Origin: Candidatus Thiodiazotropha sp. (ex Myrtea sp. 'scaly one' KF741663)
GTDB taxonomy: Bacteria > Pseudomonadota > Gammaproteobacteria > Chromatiales > Chromatiaceae
Direction of reading: 5' to 3'
Length of the DNA: 64,000 bases
Assembly (NCBI GenBank): GCA_025655555.1
Contig: JAHXIQ010000001.1
Coordinates: 496,001-560,000, forward strand
In this document: in pieces, positions 58,033 to 64,000 of the stretch
How positions within the stretch are numbered: position 1 is the stretch's first letter
Layout: each line of letters starts with the position of its first letter
The notes under the pieces: generated by a model
The model's database searches: none
Seen by the model: only the letters and a program-made list of their open reading frames with translations
What the model was told of the DNA's origin: nothing
Program-made: the position numbers and the translations under genes

Positions 58033-58940
58033 TAGTGTAGTGGCCGTACCTCATGGACAAAGGTCTTCATGAAGTCGCGCACAACCTGGTAAGTGGCATT
58101 GGATGCACTCTCAAAACGAGACAGTTCCATCGATTCAAGGATTTTCTGTCCGCGTTCATGAGTATGCAGATTAACCAGCAGGTCGTGCACTTGATGGACG
58201 ATGACTTCAGGTACTGCTGGCAGCACAACCAAACCATTGTTGATGAGTGGTTCAGTCTCCCAGATAACCTTCAACTCCTTTTCCAGCTCCGGCCTCTCCT
58301 TTGCCAACGCTTTCCAGGGTGGAGGCCAGGTGGAGGCTGCAGCAGTCTGCTTCAGGTAGACATTCATCACCGATGACTCTTGCGAGCCCACATACCGGTT
58401 GTCCAGTTCTTGCATCACATCCACACCATGAGTCTGCAGGTAGTATTGCGGCATCATTGTAGCTGCCAATGCAGTAGGAGCCGGGTAGCTGACAGCCTTC
58501 CCTTTTAGATCCGAAACCCGTTTAATACCGCTATCCTTGCGCACCAGGATAATACCTCGAAAATTATGATCATCCCCCATCTTGCCAAATACCTGATAAC
58601 CTTTATCGACAGCATTTACGGTCTGAAAAGGGTTGGGTAAACTGAAATGGAATTTTTTGGCGTACAACTTTTCATCGTAGGACGCATAATTTCGTGATGC
58701 TTCGAGTTTGAATCTGACCCCGGGAACTTGCTCTGTCAAGTATTCCATCAGTGGACCAAACACCTCAAACAACCGTTGTGGGTTATGCAACGGATGGATA
58801 CCAAAAAGATACTCTGTCACAGAAACAGATGGGGCATCTGAAAAAGATGGCTGGTATTCGTTTACAGTCTTGTTTTCACAGGCGGTTAACAGCAACAGCC
58901 CTATGCTGAACAAAAAAAACGAGATCCTCACTATAATCAT
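58032..58940 (-). CDS. PhnD-like periplasmic phosphate/phosphonate-binding lipoprotein
   Basis: A 302-residue PhnD/PhoX-type substrate-binding protein with lipobox LLTAC (Cys about residue 21). Signatures include LFGIHPLHNPQRLFEVFGPL, VRFKLEASRNYASYDEKL, the GIILVRKDSGIKRVSDLKGK block and PTALAATMMPQYYL. Usually part of an ABC importer, but no permease or ATPase gene is near; instead it overlaps a GGDEF-EAL gene by TAATG, suggesting a sensory role. Ligand unknown. Confidence 0.9.
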   Translation of the reverse strand: MIIVRISFFLFSIGLLLLTACENKTVNEYQPSFSDAPSVSVTEYLFGIHPLHNPQRLFEVFGPLMEYLTEQVPGVRFKLEASRNYASYDEKLYAKKFHFSLPNPFQTVNAVDKGYQVFGKMGDDHNFRGIILVRKDSGIKRVSDLKGKAVSYPAPTALAATMMPQYYLQTHGVDVMQELDNRYVGSQESSVMNVYLKQTAAASTWPPPWKALAKERPELEKELKVIWETEPLINNGLVVLPAVPEVIVHQVHDLLVNLHTHERGQKILESMELSRFESASNATYQVVRDFMKTFVHEVRPLH

Positions 58941-59058
58941 CCTGAACTTCTAATTAAGAAACACGGATTCACCTCGATAATCAACCCACAGAGCCGGACA
59001 TAGAGGGCAAGCTGCGGTAGTATCCTGGCCTTTCGTTCAGGCAAGGATGAGAGGCACC

Positions 59059-59257
59059 ATGAGTACCTGCATGCAACATACTCAGGAGCAACGATACCAG
59101 ATATACGCCTTGAATAAAGTCGACAATCAGCCGCGAGGTACGCCGCAACCATGGTCTACGGGGTTATCGCCCCAAACAAGCCCATCAGTATGCCACTCAA
59201 AGAGATCAGAACAAAATCAGTTTTCGCATGAGTCCAGCGAAAATAACGGGGTCATAG
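59059..59257 (+). pseudogene. IS30-family transposase remnant (N-terminal part, internally deleted)
   Basis: The frame from 59059 reads MSTCMQHTQEQRYQIYALNK, the N-terminal helix of IS30 transposases. After about 59140 the homology continues in another frame as GLRGYRPKQAHQYATQRDQN then KISFRMSP and a stop. The HTH segment that normally joins the two is missing, so this is a deleted, frameshifted fragment. No inverted repeats or catalytic DDE part are present. Confidence 0.75.
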
Positions 59258-59310
59258 AGTAATTGTTTCCAATATTAGAGATTATTGCTCCGTCCCCCAC
59301 TGTTTCTAAT

Positions 59311-60107
59311 TTATTCACTCACCATAGAATGGCCTGTTTTTTCTAAAAGCAGGTCAGGTCGCTCCTCAATCACAAGGTGTCCTGTGTTCGGCATTTCGAA
59401 GAACAAAGCGTCTGGAATCAACTGCTGTAATAACCTTCCACGTTCAACCGGGATCCAATTGTCCTCAGTGCCCCAAAGTATCATTAGCGACTTGGTAATT
59501 TGTGAATAGACGGATTGAACTTCATCAGTATATTCCTCTTTAGCCTGCGCTATTTGTCTGTAAAATGCCGCTTGCCCATCTTTACCCATCCATGGCTGAA
59601 TAGTTTTATCCATCGTGTCATCGGATAATGGCGTATATGCTGCCGTATTGATGTAGGCTCGCACAATTGCCTCATGAATGTAATCCGGCACACCTGTAAA
59701 GGCATCTTCATGTGCTTTGACGTGCTGAAAAAAGGGTGAGCCCCAAGGCGAAATTGATACTGGATCGATTAACACTATTTTTGCAAAATCCTGCTTATTG
59801 AGTAGATGGGCACGTAATACTGTGGCACCGCCAAAGTCATACCCAATGACTGCCGGCTTTTCCAGTCCCCAGAATTTGATTAGTCGATCAAGAATTGTGT
59901 TTTGAATGCCGAGAGATACATCGCCATTCGATTTATCAGATTGACCGTAACCGATCAATCTGAAAGGGACTCGATAATATGCCTCATGTTGTAAGAGGGC
60001 CAGGGGGTACCGTGCACGACTATAACTGGAGGCCCTTCTCCCGCAACCCCGAACCTTACATAGCGGCCTTCAAACGTGTAGGTTTCTGTTAGATTCCAAT
60101 CTGTCAT
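59311..60107 (-). pseudogene. Alpha/beta hydrolase (haloalkane-dehalogenase-like), frameshifted
   Basis: The gene starts with ATG at 60107 (MTDWNLTETYTFEGRYVRFG, GEGPPVIVVHGTPWPSYN, RHIIESLSD) and hits a stop at about 59958. The rest continues in another frame from LIGYGQSDKSN. Homologues have about ten more residues (YFD-type) at the junction, so a small deletion broke the frame. Downstream parts are intact: nucleophile elbow IGYDFGGATVLRA with Asp, as in haloalkane dehalogenases, and catalytic His in NTGHLVIEERPD. Likely non-functional unless the 3' frame is translated from an internal TTG, which would lack the oxyanion loop. Confidence 0.8.
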
Positions 60108-60302
60108 GGGCTTTAAAAAATAAACAGGGGACCATGTAATTTCTTCATGACCTCCATCATTAAAATATTAAACTGTGGTCTATCCCTATTGTTCCTTCCA
60201 TGGCTTTGATCTTTACCGACGCGATGCGTTTAATAATGACATGTGTGTCCATAATATTTTCCTTTCCCAATAATTGCAGTAATTATCTGCTAAATAATTA
60301 CT

Positions 60303-60321
60303 AGGGCCTGCTAACATTAAT
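60303..60321. repeat. Fragment related to the MITE terminus
   Basis: AGGGCCTGCTAACATTAAT matches 17 of 19 bases of the MITE end at 52542-52560. It lies directly after the DUF1330 gene. No second end is seen nearby, so it is a remnant or solo end. Confidence 0.45.
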
Positions 60322-60325
60322 ACTC

Positions 60326-60613
60326 TTACTCTTCATATACGAGCAAATCCATTTCAGCAGCTTCCTGCCTAAGAGGAACTAACGATTGGTACTGTGTAGA
60401 GTCATGCCAATTATTTACTGAATCCAGATTTGGAAAGCGTATGACTACAGTATCATTGTGATTATGGCTTCCTGAAAGCACGGATGTCAGCTTACCCCTA
60501 AAAACCAACTCACCACCCCACGGTGACAATGTACCTGGTACTTTGTTGCGGTACTCCAGCCATTTCTCGGTATTTTTTACTGTAATGTGTCCAATGATGT
60601 ATGCGTTTGCCAT
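60326..60613 (-). CDS. DUF1330 family protein
   Basis: A 95-residue dimeric alpha-beta barrel protein: MANAYIIGHITVKNTEKWLE, the turn FRGKLTSVLSGSH and VVIRFPNLDSVNNWHDSTQY. DUF1330 members are of unknown function. A probable cassette, given strand and neighbours, but no attC site is recognisable after it. Confidence 0.85.
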   Translation of the reverse strand: MANAYIIGHITVKNTEKWLEYRNKVPGTLSPWGGELVFRGKLTSVLSGSHNHNDTVVIRFPNLDSVNNWHDSTQYQSLVPLRQEAAEMDLLVYEE

Positions 60614-60659
60614 ATTCTTATTCTTCTTTTTTTCGTATTAAAACAAAACAAACTGAGCC

Positions 60660-61229
60660 TCAAAGATTTCTAGCCTCATTCCAGAGCTTTACTCTATCAA
60701 CAACAGTTATCCATTCATCAAATTGGGAACGACTTTTCTGCCATCGATCCGATAATTTCTTTCTTGGATCTTCACTTAAAGAGTATGCCATGGCTTCTAT
60801 TAGCCACTCTGGAGCACGAAGAAATGCAAGAACGCCAATTTCTTCCATTTGACGGTGGTGTATCATTTCATGACGAATGTAATAAAGCTCCCAACCTCTA
60901 GGGCTAATAACAATCCCCATTTTCCTACATTGCTGGCTGATGCCTTATTAAACCAAAATTCTTGAAAACAGGTTTCGGTAGAATAAAACACAGCTCGTGG
61001 CATTTTCTCAAATGAGCCTAGCTCATCAGCGACATATTTAATGGCCCGATTGTACAATACGGAAGCCTCAATTAAACTTATTTTCATCATCAACACATAC
61101 ATTACTGCTTATACAAGAAATGCCTTTTACCTGCTCAGGTAGAAGCACTCTTACAGGCTTAAATAATGTCTATGCTGCTAAAGGAATCAATAACACAACT
61201 ACAGTTATGGTAATGACTATTTTCTTCAT
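60660..61229 (-). pseudogene. Putative HExxH metalloprotein gene, broken by one stop and two frameshifts
   Basis: The coding sequence starts with ATG at 61229 after AGGAGG (MKKIVITITVVVLLIPLAA, a signal or membrane segment), hits TAG, continues in frame TLFKPVRVLLPEQVKGISC, then shifts near 61075 (EASVLYNRAIKYVADELG), and shifts again in AAAATGGGG near 60920 to GIVISPRGWELYYIRHEMIH then HRQMEE. HEMIH is an HExxH zinc motif. The three pieces align end to end without overlap, so this is one decayed gene of about 190 residues. Family unknown. Homopolymer position of the second shift makes a sequencing error conceivable for that one. Confidence 0.75.
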
Positions 61230-61243
61230 GCTTCCTCCTGATA

Positions 61244-61289
61244 CTCTAACGCCTCGCCTCACAGTAGAGCACGCAAACGCGTGTTGAAC
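61244..61289 (-). repeat. attC-like site, short and degenerate
   Basis: On the minus strand GTTCAAC (61289-61283) and GTTAGAG (61250-61244) are in the positions of the attC core sites, with weak inner arms (ACGCGTTTGC and AGGCGAGGCG). It lies between the SGNH cassette stop and the next gene start. Short for an attC (46 bases), so possibly deleted internally. Confidence 0.5.
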
Positions 61290-61294
61290 TTTTA

Positions 61295-61936
61295 TTAGAA
61301 GAATTCTTCACCGATGACTGCCTGTGCGATAGCTTTTCCAAGTACTTCATGCTGTGGTTCATCCAGGTGAATACCATCAACTATGCTTACTTCTGTAACC
61401 GAGCCCGCATCGAAGTACATTACCGACATCTCTTGTTCCACCTTCTCAAGTTCGTTGGCTAATCCAATACAGCGTTTTTCGGCATTTTTTAATTTGCAAG
61501 CGATGCTGCCTTTAGGCTCAGTAATTCGGGGTGGCGCAACTATAAAGATTTTTGGTACAGGCATTCCCGGCTCAATGGGAGATTGCTTGATTATGTTTAC
61601 AAGCTTTGCTGTTCCTTGAGCGGAAAGCCATGCATCGTTTACATGTGTGCACTGAAAATCATTAGTGCCCAACATGAGAATAACGAGCCTCAAGGGGGAA
61701 TTCATTTCGATAACTTCGGACAAGCCCTCGGAGCCATTTCTTCCATTCTTGAAAGGATCTGACCATGTGGTTCTACGGCCATTCAGGCAGTTCTCAATAA
61801 CCTTGACGTTCTTACCTTCACTGTGAAGGGTGTTTTCAAACACCCCGGGCCACCGCTTTTCGAAAGGAAGCCGCTTTCTTGTGTTGGGAATGATCCCCCA
61901 GGTGAGACTGTCTGAGTAAATGAGTATTTGTACCAT
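61295..61936 (-). CDS. SGNH/GDSL hydrolase (cassette gene)
   Basis: A 213-residue esterase-like protein of the SGNH family. Block I is IYSDSLTWG (Ser nucleophile; GDS is replaced by SDS), block III MLGTNDF with catalytic Asn, block V DGIHLDEPQH with Asp and His. The region NCLNGRRTTWSDPFKNGRNG supplies the block II Gly. Relatives include arylesterases and cassette-borne acetylxylan-type esterases. No signal peptide. It starts nine bases after an attC-type site. Confidence 0.9.
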   Translation of the reverse strand: MVQILIYSDSLTWGIIPNTRKRLPFEKRWPGVFENTLHSEGKNVKVIENCLNGRRTTWSDPFKNGRNGSEGLSEVIEMNSPLRLVILMLGTNDFQCTHVNDAWLSAQGTAKLVNIIKQSPIEPGMPVPKIFIVAPPRITEPKGSIACKLKNAEKRCIGLANELEKVEQEMSVMYFDAGSVTEVSIVDGIHLDEPQHEVLGKAIAQAVIGEEFF

Positions 61937-61944
61937 TTTTATTC

Positions 61945-62012
61945 TTCTAACGACGCAAATAACCGGTGCTGAGCGACAGCGAAGCTGTCCGAGTTGATTT
62001 GACTTGTTATAA
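61945..62012 (-). repeat. attC recombination site (integron)
   Basis: Minus strand: GTTRRRY-complement core TTATAAC (62012-62006) opens, GTTAGAA (61951-61945) closes. Inner arms AAGTCAAATCAACTCGGACA and ACGCAAATAACCGGTGC-type pair through CAAAT.AAC.CGG with unpaired extra bases, then GACAGC/GCTGTC closes the tip. Length 68 bases. Organisation (inverted core sites around an imperfect hairpin) is the attC definition. Confidence 0.85.
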
Positions 62013-62014
62013 CC

Positions 62015-62683
62015 TTACTCGATAATTGAATATGAGCTTCTTGCATCTTCTTTTTTCATGCCATTGAAGTGCCACCATTCATAAGAAAGCGGATAAAACC
62101 CTGCCTTTAACATCGCTCGTTTCAATAGGGCTCGATTTTCCTTTTGTTTGGGAGATATATCAAAGCCAACCTTTTTAAGAAAGTATTGCCAGTAGATTTT
62201 TGCATGGCTGCTATAAAAAGGGCTTGGCCCCATATCTAGTTTGTTGCCATTTTCATCGACAATCGTGATATCTACAGCAATACCATAATTGTGCATCGAA
62301 CCTTTGATAGGATTGGCAACATACTTTTCAAAGCGAGTGCCTTTCATTTTTTCATACATGGCGCGAGAAACAGACCTTGGCCGAGCCGCATCAAGCACCT
62401 GAAGTGAATACTTTGGCTTTTCGTTTTTCAAAACTTGCTGTGCCTTTGATAGCTTTACAGCAACTTCTTTTCTTAAAAATGCTTTATTAAGCCCGCTGTA
62501 GAAATCTTCTTCAAAAAAGTTTTTATCTGAATCGGAATTGACAAGATCAACCTTGATTGAACTATCAATTTGATTTACATCAACAAGCTTTGCTTTGAGA
62601 AACTTGTTTTCAATATCATTTGCCAGCACCCCACTAGAGTTGAGCAGGGCGACTATCACAATGAATATACTTAAATAACGCAC
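62015..62683 (-). CDS. VanX-like D-alanyl-D-alanine dipeptidase (M15 family, cassette gene)
   Basis: A 222-residue exported zinc peptidase. A signal peptide (IFIVIVALLNSSGVLA) is followed by a domain with SLQVLDAARPRSV (Arg that stabilises the transition state), SMHNYGIAVDI (zinc His and Asp) and EWWHF (catalytic Glu and zinc His), as in VanX/DdpX. VanX hydrolyses D-Ala-D-Ala; an exported version would rather recycle peptidoglycan dipeptides. GTG start after GGAAG. It is not linked to vanHA-type genes here. Confidence 0.88.
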   Translation of the reverse strand: MRYLSIFIVIVALLNSSGVLANDIENKFLKAKLVDVNQIDSSIKVDLVNSDSDKNFFEEDFYSGLNKAFLRKEVAVKLSKAQQVLKNEKPKYSLQVLDAARPRSVSRAMYEKMKGTRFEKYVANPIKGSMHNYGIAVDITIVDENGNKLDMGPSPFYSSHAKIYWQYFLKKVGFDISPKQKENRALLKRAMLKAGFYPLSYEWWHFNGMKKEDARSSYSIIE

Positions 62684-62698
62684 CTTCTTCCTTTTTGG

Positions 62699-62784
62699 TT
62701 ATAATGCCCTGCATCACTGAGAAAATAAAGCTACAGAGCGTAGCGGCGTAGCTTTATTTTTTCCAGTGAACGCAATTGTTATGC
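62699..62784 (-). repeat. attC recombination site (integron), one core degenerate
   Basis: Minus strand: GCATAAC (62784-62778) and ATTATAA (62705-62699) bracket an 86-base hairpin whose arms CACTGGAAAAAATAAAGCTA and TAGCTTTATTTTCTCAGTG are almost fully complementary. The first G of the closing core is A, so recombination here may be impaired. The stop codon of the preceding gene (62779-62781) lies inside the core. Confidence 0.8.
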
Positions 62785-63135
62785 CCCGCTTATACTTTCT
62801 ACCCATGTCAAATACTCTTTCTCTTCTTTAACCTGAAATTTTTTATATTTTTCAGGATCTTTCTCTTGTAGCCCCCAGCGCCTTGATGAATGAGGATATT
62901 CTGCCGCACAGAGCAAGTCTCGATAATCAGTACACGCAAGATCAATGAATGATTCCAGTTTATCTGGTTCTTGAGACACCAGATAAAGAATGCCAAGTCT
63001 TACCCTAGATTTTTCTCTATGAAATGTTTCGGTCCCGTACACTTCAAGCAGCTGTTCAACTTCCTTTCTTTTTTCCTCTTCCGGGTACATTACTCGAAGA
63101 GCAACCGGAACAAGTGATTGGTAATCAATATTCAT
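62779..63135 (-). CDS. Cassette gene of unknown function
   Basis: A 118-residue acidic, mostly helical protein starting MNIDYQSLVPVALRVMYPEE, three bases after an attC core. An upstream in-frame start at 63195 would lie inside the attC and is rejected. The motif SRRWGLQEKDPEKYKKFQVK near the C-terminus and two Cys (LACTDYRDLLC) are all I can note. No membrane segment or signal. Its stop is embedded in the following attC site. Confidence 0.75.
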   Translation of the reverse strand: MNIDYQSLVPVALRVMYPEEEKRKEVEQLLEVYGTETFHREKSRVRLGILYLVSQEPDKLESFIDLACTDYRDLLCAAEYPHSSRRWGLQEKDPEKYKKFQVKEEKEYLTWVESISGA

Positions 63136-63137
63136 AG

Positions 63138-63227
63138 GCATAACGCTTAAGATAACTTGACTACAAAAGTAGAGTGTAGCAAAGCGAAACGGCACTTTTG
63201 TTGGTCAAGTTAATCGCATTGTTGGGT
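63138..63227 (-). repeat. attC recombination site (integron)
   Basis: Minus strand: ACCCAAC (63227-63221) and GTTATGC (63144-63138) enclose 90 bases. Inner arms ATTAACTTGACCAACAAAAG and ACTTTTGTAGTCAAGTTAT pair nearly throughout, with the extra bases on one arm that orient attC recombination. This is the clearest site in the window. Confidence 0.9.
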
Positions 63228-63230
63228 ATT

Positions 63231-63955
63231 TTATTTGATTTCAATGTCGTCCAACCTGTAGTCTTTAACCAATTTTTCTGCTTTGCTTTTTATTTTAATT
63301 GCTGAGTCTCTATCATTTAATGCAATTGCTAAATTAATCAATTCTATCGCGTCTTCAACGAAGTTGTTTTCTGAAAGAGCTATTAAACGAACGCCGTATT
63401 CTTCATTGCTATAGCGATCAATACTCTCTTTGTAGTCAGCTTCTTTTAATGTGTACTCGCGTAGAACATTGCCTATATATACTCTCGGACAATGCTGTAT
63501 TCATTTTCTTTTATTAAAGTGTCTTTAGATATACGCCAAACATCCTTTGCAAGTTTCGGTTGATTTTTATGAAGGTATTTAAATAAATCTACTGTTTTAT
63601 TGTCATCAGATAATGTTCTGTTTATAGAAGAGACATCATGAAACAAATTGCGAGTTCCTTCACCTGATTTAATAATATTTGTCTTTTTATCTCTAATGTC
63701 TTTTAAAGCCGCTAATGCGGGTGGATATTTTTTGCCAAACTCATGCCATCTACTTAACTCGAATGATAGCCGAACACCATACAAACCAGGGCGATGCTCT
63801 AAAGCATGATTATGAAACCATATTGTTCTTTCTAGAGCCTCTTCATATTCATTCATTTCTATTAAATCAGCTGTTTCTCTCATGTACTCCCGCATATCTT
63901 TTGCATGTAATGCAGAAGATATTATTAAAAAAATGAGAATGCTAAATATTTTCAT
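63231..63955 (-). pseudogene. Cassette gene, exported repeat-helical protein, frameshifted in a TA run
   Basis: The frame starts at ATG 63955 with a signal peptide (IFSILIFLIISSALHA) and stops at 63473 in SIVREYI. Homology-like coding continues in another frame as GNVLREYTLKEADYKESIDR to ...KLVKDYRLDDIEIK and TAA at 63231. The break lies in GAGTATATATAGG; removing one TA restores one frame of about 240 residues. Helical repeats suggest a TPR-like fold, but no family is recognised. It begins just after an attC core and is followed by another. Confidence 0.75.
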
Positions 63956-63964
63956 TGTTTTGAT

Positions 63965-64000
63965 ACCCAACAGTTACTTATATTGCTGGCACGAATAATG
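63965..64000 (-). repeat. attC site, closing half (continues past the window edge)
   Basis: The minus strand shows the closing core GTTGGGT (63971-63965), a perfect match to GTTRRRY, preceded by the arm CCAGCAATATAAGTAACT. The opening half would lie beyond 64000. Its presence shows that the cassette array extends to the right. Confidence 0.7.

Follow-up and report, generated by a model that had tools for sequence, protein, structure and literature searches.

Sedentary chromosomal integrons combine an integrase gene (intI), an attI site, a promoter (Pc) and an array of cassettes. Arrays without a neighbouring intI are known as clusters of attC sites lacking integron integrases (CALINs); they have been described as degraded integrons (PMC9024848), although a functional IntI can act on them in trans and mobilise them (PMC12444791). 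Mobile integrons can carry delta-attI cassettes, whose extra attI-type sites have been shown to be used by IntI1 (PMC12901181). The stretch of DNA considered here (the window, 64,000 nucleotides) comprises bases 496001-560000 of contig C1 (986,486 bases) in a Candidatus Thiodiazotropha genome of 3.98 Mb and nine contigs (G000). At its right end lies a genuine cassette array of the chromosomal integron type, headed by an attI that has no integrase gene beside it. This array is probably part of a distributed integron, being a small cassette array with its own orphan attI and one of many such platforms served in trans by a long IntI.

The window array resembles a CALIN in being an attC cluster without an adjoining intI, and IntegronFinder, which looks for attI only in class 1 integrons, would list it as such (PMC9024848). 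A CALIN has at least two attC by covariance model, and two strong sites and one weak site were found here; a whole-genome search with TIGR02249 placed no integron integrase gene nearby, and no intI adjoins the attI as it would in a complete integron. It differs from a CALIN in that the clusters of this genome begin with copies of one attI. With a sedentary chromosomal integron it shares an attI followed by co-oriented cassettes and a cognate intI in the same genome; here, however, 558 kb separate the array from that intI, and attI is present in about 20 copies instead of one. Delta-attI sites serve as a cassette's downstream site within a single array (PMC12901181), whereas the attI copies described here head separate arrays at separate places. 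Among the matches listed from the open-access literature on multiple, orphan, additional or second attI sites, no title dealt with dispersed attI copies, and the open-access literature pairing Thiodiazotropha with integrons amounted to one paper, on another subject by its title.

The comparison set held 56 genomes in all, and the genus set searched comprised 22 genomes, the window's own included (genomes, contigs and loci are given below as G, C and L numbers). Two models of attC were used, neither of which contains a site of the window. R1 was built from 22 attC sites adjoining integrase genes of relatives, after two of 24 candidates had been removed for their coding appearance. On the window it recovered only 61945 and 63142 (E 0.34); with filters off, on 14 kb, its top match was 61945 at E 0.26, and 63138 was absent from the matches listed. 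Because R1 missed one of the three window attC, R2 was built from more sites, 56 in number, taken from relatives and from elsewhere in the window's genome. R2 finds three attC in the 64 kb window (Table 1) and, beyond these, no match up to E 10. In both alignments, covariation of the paired attC columns exceeds that of shuffled and slid controls by most measures; in the R2 alignment, which was fitted to structure, two of five covariation measures (pairs changed on both sides, and further pair types) do not exceed the controls. A pattern-only search, combining the core consensus with arm complementarity, was dropped for its many matches in coding DNA.

An initial annotation of the window had proposed a chromosomal cassette array in which each gene opens shortly past one site and closes at or close to the following one, with an attI to the right. 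The models, free of window sites, bear out the array; the gene layout is as described, and the attI lies at the right end of the array, reaching 64040. Five attC had been claimed, of which those at 63138 and 61945 hold and that at 62699 holds weakly, whereas 61244 has no R1 or R2 match and folds no better than shuffles (61244..61291 may be a decayed site), and 63965 proved to be an attI-like crossover.

At the proximal end, about 235 bases (63959-64195) recur before five other attC clusters with 78-92% identity in the loci compared; the copy at C5:336k has just 76 bases in common with the window leader, and that at C2:138k has 614 bases in common with the window copy, at 76.5%. Six array leaders are similar through CTG/TT (the slash marks the integron crossover) and diverge past it, as expected of different first cassettes. 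The last 75 bases form about 2.5 direct repeats of 25 bases, in an alignment judged by eye, and in relatives a homologous site stands adjacent to and divergent from intI. The attI model R3 is sequence-only and rests on a 17-sequence alignment; its input was 26 hand-chosen leader units, of which six were skipped and three more (C1_925, C2_537, C3_439) went unused. R3 matches the window attI at C1:559967-560040 with 72.4 bits, this site being itself among the 17, together with several sites found through nearness to attC clusters.

The leader box TGTAGGAAAAAGNCTACAGACA (at most two mismatches) has 11 copies in the window's genome, with an R3 match behind all 11; in G013, G014 and G018, an R3 match stands behind 14 of 19 copies, and several of the others are at contig ends. 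With 30 copies in total, the box is confined to these four of the 22 genus genomes, and a reversed control pattern gave none. A second, different leader is common to three attI copies (C7R, C3:439k and C5:336k). Leaders also carry an 18-bp palindrome, TGTAGG-N6-CCTACA, and the motifs TGGCATCTTT and TGAGAACATTT before attI (L010:90-200 and others), which are possibly a regulator box; the palindrome may resemble a GacA box. Degenerate 24-base repeats (AATAACATCGTTAACGAAG-like) lie at 64565-64980, past the leader and before the gene of the right flank, and also in G014 and G018.

The TIGR02249 search of the whole genome gave two matches above cut-off, C1:613-1536, which is the nearest intI on the same contig, and C9:63618-64556 on another contig, where the IntI is a short one. 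The C1 gene (L013:160-1539, that is G000:C1:160-1539) encodes a long IntI of 459 amino acids from its ATG, which scores 449.5 bits against a cut-off of 265 and, from residue 157 onward, can be aligned with 2a3v, the structure of a Vibrio integron integrase (E 1.7e-91); its extra N-terminal portion of about 145 residues matches no Pfam family. Relatives with this N-terminal extension occur well outside the genus. An attI homologous to that of the window adjoins the C1 long intI. Among the 108 R3 matches of at least 25 bits in the 22 genus genomes, 15 have a divergent intI-type match within 1.5 kb, and ten of these 15 are long, one per genome in ten genomes; the open frames span 461-494 codons in nine of them and 254 in the remaining one. 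Because the site stands immediately upstream of a divergent long intI in ten genus genomes, it is very probably the attI of the long IntI. Of 47 loci holding or adjoining integron integrases, R3 matched two: one belongs to Ca. T. endoloripes and scores 38.9 bits, the other comes from a different genus of the family and scores 18.4 bits. There was no match at the short-IntI loci L014, L099, L100, L101 and L102 or at long relatives outside the genus. In G004 (C1:23153-23674) and G009 (C36:3233-3754), a tyrosine-recombinase-like match lies just past an attI match on the same strand, and G004 has more of these.

The orphan attI are dispersed over the window's genome. R3 has 23 matches there, 20 of them at 25 bits or more, and two of these 20 adjoin an intI, in one case the intact long gene and in the other a remnant, while 18 adjoin neither; whole-genome counts from R3 and the attC models are lower bounds, as no more than 150 candidates per genome were scored. 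An R2 attC follows downstream on the same strand within 6 kb of 13 of the 23 matches (random placement of 23 sites: mean 0.32, maximum 3 in 2000 trials), and no attC lies within 6 kb of any of them on the opposite strand or upstream. Nine of the 23 had gone into R3, seven of them among the 13 with attC, and three of the 23 end within 100 bases of a contig edge. Since some of the sites used for R3 had been found through their nearness to attC clusters, the test was redone without them: of the 13 matches neither used for R3 nor at an edge, six have an attC (random mean 0.19, maximum 3 in 5000 trials). Starting from the attC matches of at least 22 bits, 24 of 38 have an attI within 6 kb upstream.

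The site is present in all 22 genus genomes, whereas R3 found nothing at 25 bits or more (best 18.9) in 18 genomes from outside the genus that had been selected for lacking a full-length intI. Of 41 attI or leader loci of other genus members, counted by hand, 19 are followed by attC in the same orientation; many of the remaining loci end at contig ends or are seen just 1.5 kb deep, and one weak attC lies upstream on the same strand (G016:C18, 19.7 bits). G015 and G004 are single contigs, so their orphan attI are no assembly gaps. Three of the four attI sites of G015 are 70-466 kb from a full-length intI, the fourth being 1.4 kb from one, and three sites of G004 are 92-817 kb away, one with a same-strand recombinase-like match beside it.

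Cassettes have turned over at such sites in other species. The attI side of an orthologous orphan locus is 95.8% identical between G015 and G021 over 2241 bases and the distal part 97.9% over 1405 bases, while the cassettes between differ; identity breaks at the attI core CTG/TT and resumes at the attC core GTTGGGC. The full-length intI of G015 that comes closest to this attI is still 466 kb off. Orthologous orphan loci with different cassettes are also found, with both flanks, for C1:632k against G013 and C2:138k against G018, and C5:336k is orthologous with G013 on the attI side, again with differing cassettes. A 1438-bp cassette that ends at cores is 99.2% identical between the C2:653k array here and a G013 array with other flanks, compared with 72-90% for the remaining DNA that both genomes have in common at these loci. 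Such events are consistent with integron recombination at sites without an adjoining integrase gene.

The long IntI would be the agent of this exchange, and it may still be acting. It would work in trans, binding each dispersed attI as double-stranded DNA, cutting it at G/TT and inserting cassettes there after recognising their folded attC. In this way a single genome would keep many small arrays at fixed places.

Several observations weigh against a distributed integron or against the part of the window array in it. In the window, the first base of the R' core of the 62699 attC departs from the conserved G of the R2 alignment, and frames are broken in three genes, namely the first cassette gene, 60660-61223 and the hydrolase gene at 59311-60107; with its degenerate core and broken genes the array is partly decayed, and the window's copy may therefore be idle. 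A simple scan of 700 bases of the leader region for a sigma-70-like promoter (Pc) found none. At the orthologous locus of G014, only leader positions 1-157 of 237 are present before the sequence changes, 85 bases from a contig end, and R3 has no match there. Within the genome, seven of 20 testable R3 matches have no downstream attC, and for 14 of the 38 attC matches the 6 kb upstream contain no R3 site; eight of the 14 are no more than 3 kb from the contig ends C3L, C6R and C7L, unlike the other six (C3:400k, C5:246k and C3:556k). Three intI loci of the genus with frames of 482-485 codons (L046, L047 and L048; G019:C22, G005:C78 and G001:C108) have no R3 match, and the attI therefore goes with a single kind of long IntI and not with every one. 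R2 also matches in six of 18 genomes outside the genus, so isolated R2 matches are to be taken with care. A comparison of flanks with G014 and G018 showed no cassette turnover at the window locus itself, and no precise empty site for the window was found, close orthologues of its left flank gene being present only in G015 and G021 of the 56 genomes.

Two further features of the genome concern attC and contig ends. Five attC stand in a run at G000:C3:400543-402385, with no upstream attI match and no contig edge near; this run may have another attI type or have come by another route. An element starting GTTGCACAAATAG begins exactly at the G/TT of attI or attC cores and is found at four contig ends (C1 left, C5 right, C7 right and C9 right), and the ends C3L, C6R and C7L look like its other end. 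Its start resembles a G004 element (L099:3828-5134) that carries an IS91-family transposase; here the contigs stop inside the element, and no gene of it is seen. The repeat at the four contig ends had been considered as a common first cassette, which was set aside for the insertion-sequence reading.

The initial annotation had taken the array for the distal end of a larger integron with its integrase to the right of the window, a view suggested by the co-oriented cassettes with attC and the attI at the right, and now left with next to no probability. To the right, no open reading frame of at least 120 amino acids occurs in the first 980 bases, followed by genes for an ABC-F ATPase, a TrpB-like protein and other ordinary products from about 1 kb. 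No integrase above cut-off lies in that direction, and the covariance check that had been proposed, while finding the window's attC, gave no further R2 match up to C1:620000. Because of these three negatives, a larger integron is already refuted unless the contig is wrong, and the right flank of the window is matched in G014 and G018; the array is short, with its proximal end at the window edge. Each orphan attI array could also be the leftover of a complete integron minus its intI, with sites unused and cassettes merely decaying. Remnants of intI with stops do stand beside one attI here (C3:572616) and one in G003 (C6:176130), and the decay of the window array and the attI matches without attC point the same way. 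Such relics are nevertheless rather unlikely, given the exchange at cores between G015 and G021, the cassette nearly identical in two species whose other common DNA has diverged, and the 11 copies that have one leader in the place of intI, which independent losses would not yield.

That the repeated leader is a conserved control region and no recombination site is very unlikely: its outer half (the palindrome and following motifs) is conserved and looks regulatory, but conservation stops at the crossover base, where cassettes change, and the inner half is kept while the outer half is swapped for another leader. Loot et al. are said to have described attG integration in 2024. Like the arrays here, attG integration places cassettes at many chromosomal positions away from intI (PMC12444791), and insertion at random non-classical genomic sites merely resembling an R box would account for dispersed single-cassette and small arrays; it may hold for the six attC matches near neither an attI nor a contig edge. 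However, attG sites are not attI, whereas the sites here share homology over about 75 bases with the intI-adjacent attI and also occur next to intI genes, and as a general account attG is extremely improbable.

The coordinates of the features are summarized in Table 1.

Table 1. Features of the cassette array, from its proximal (right) to its distal end (positions in the window; R1 and R2, attC models; z, bottom-strand fold z-score).
Feature	Position	Strand	Evidence or remark
Crossover core GTTGGGT	63965-63971	(-)	Start of orphan attI, which runs to 64040, past the window
Whole leader	63959-64195	(-)	Repeated before other attC clusters
Cassette 1, short gene of no recognised family	63228..63964	(-)	Frame broken near 63475 (three-frame translation)
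attC of cassette 1	63138..63227	(-)	R2 33.3 bits, E 6.5e-6; z -2.9
Cassette 2, 118-aa (amino acid) protein	62779..63135	(-)	No match in Pfam, NCBIfam or PADLOC
Degenerate attC of cassette 2	62699..62784	(-)	R2 16.7 bits, E 0.094; z -5.0
Cassette 3, D-Ala-D-Ala dipeptidase-like (peptidase M15)	62015..62683	(-)	PF01427, 57.4 bits
attC of cassette 3	61945..62012	(-)	R2 32.5 bits, E 1e-5; R1 E 0.0044; z -1.9
Cassette 4, SGNH hydrolase, last gene behind a supported attC	61295..61936	(-)	PF13472, 33.0 bits (cut-off 32.9)
Claimed attC without support	61244..61291	(-)	No R1 or R2 match; z -0.9 (fold at 61243)
Broken gene just distal to the array, membership uncertain	60660..61223	(-)	Stops and frame changes; starts a few bases past the 61244 core

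The dipeptidase-like protein, first annotated as VanX-like, does belong to peptidase M15, but it scores 29.6 bits against the curated NCBIfam VanX cut-off of 320 and is also under the DdpX cut-off; a comparison with solved structures gave no match. The orphan-attI arrays of G015 and G021 contain homologues of its gene at 77-78% DNA identity, and G003 has a partial match. Homologues of the SGNH hydrolase are present in 12 other genus genomes, and an attC-like R2 match (26.2, 16.9 and 13.4 bits) lies 3' of the gene in three of ten loci tested. PADLOC found no defence family among six window proteins, and neither the first part of the cassette 1 gene nor the pieces of the 60660-61223 gene matched Pfam. 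Distal to the array, a frame change interrupts an alpha/beta hydrolase gene at 59311-60107. A plasmid search of 58500-64000 gave no match.

Arrays without an integrase gene are usually taken for debris, and programs that do not look for attI miss dispersed attI arrays. It is quite possible, though less likely than not, that the unit of palindromic leader and attI, about 235 bp together, is a non-autonomous element which has dispersed through the chromosome and so increases the number of integron docking sites; the integron would then grow by platform copying, with one integrase feeding arrays at fixed loci that each have a control region of their own upstream. If many such arrays begin with a working attI, the genome has many capture slots and the integrase acts genome-wide. 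If true, this would offer an answer to how integrase-less arrays arise and stay supplied.

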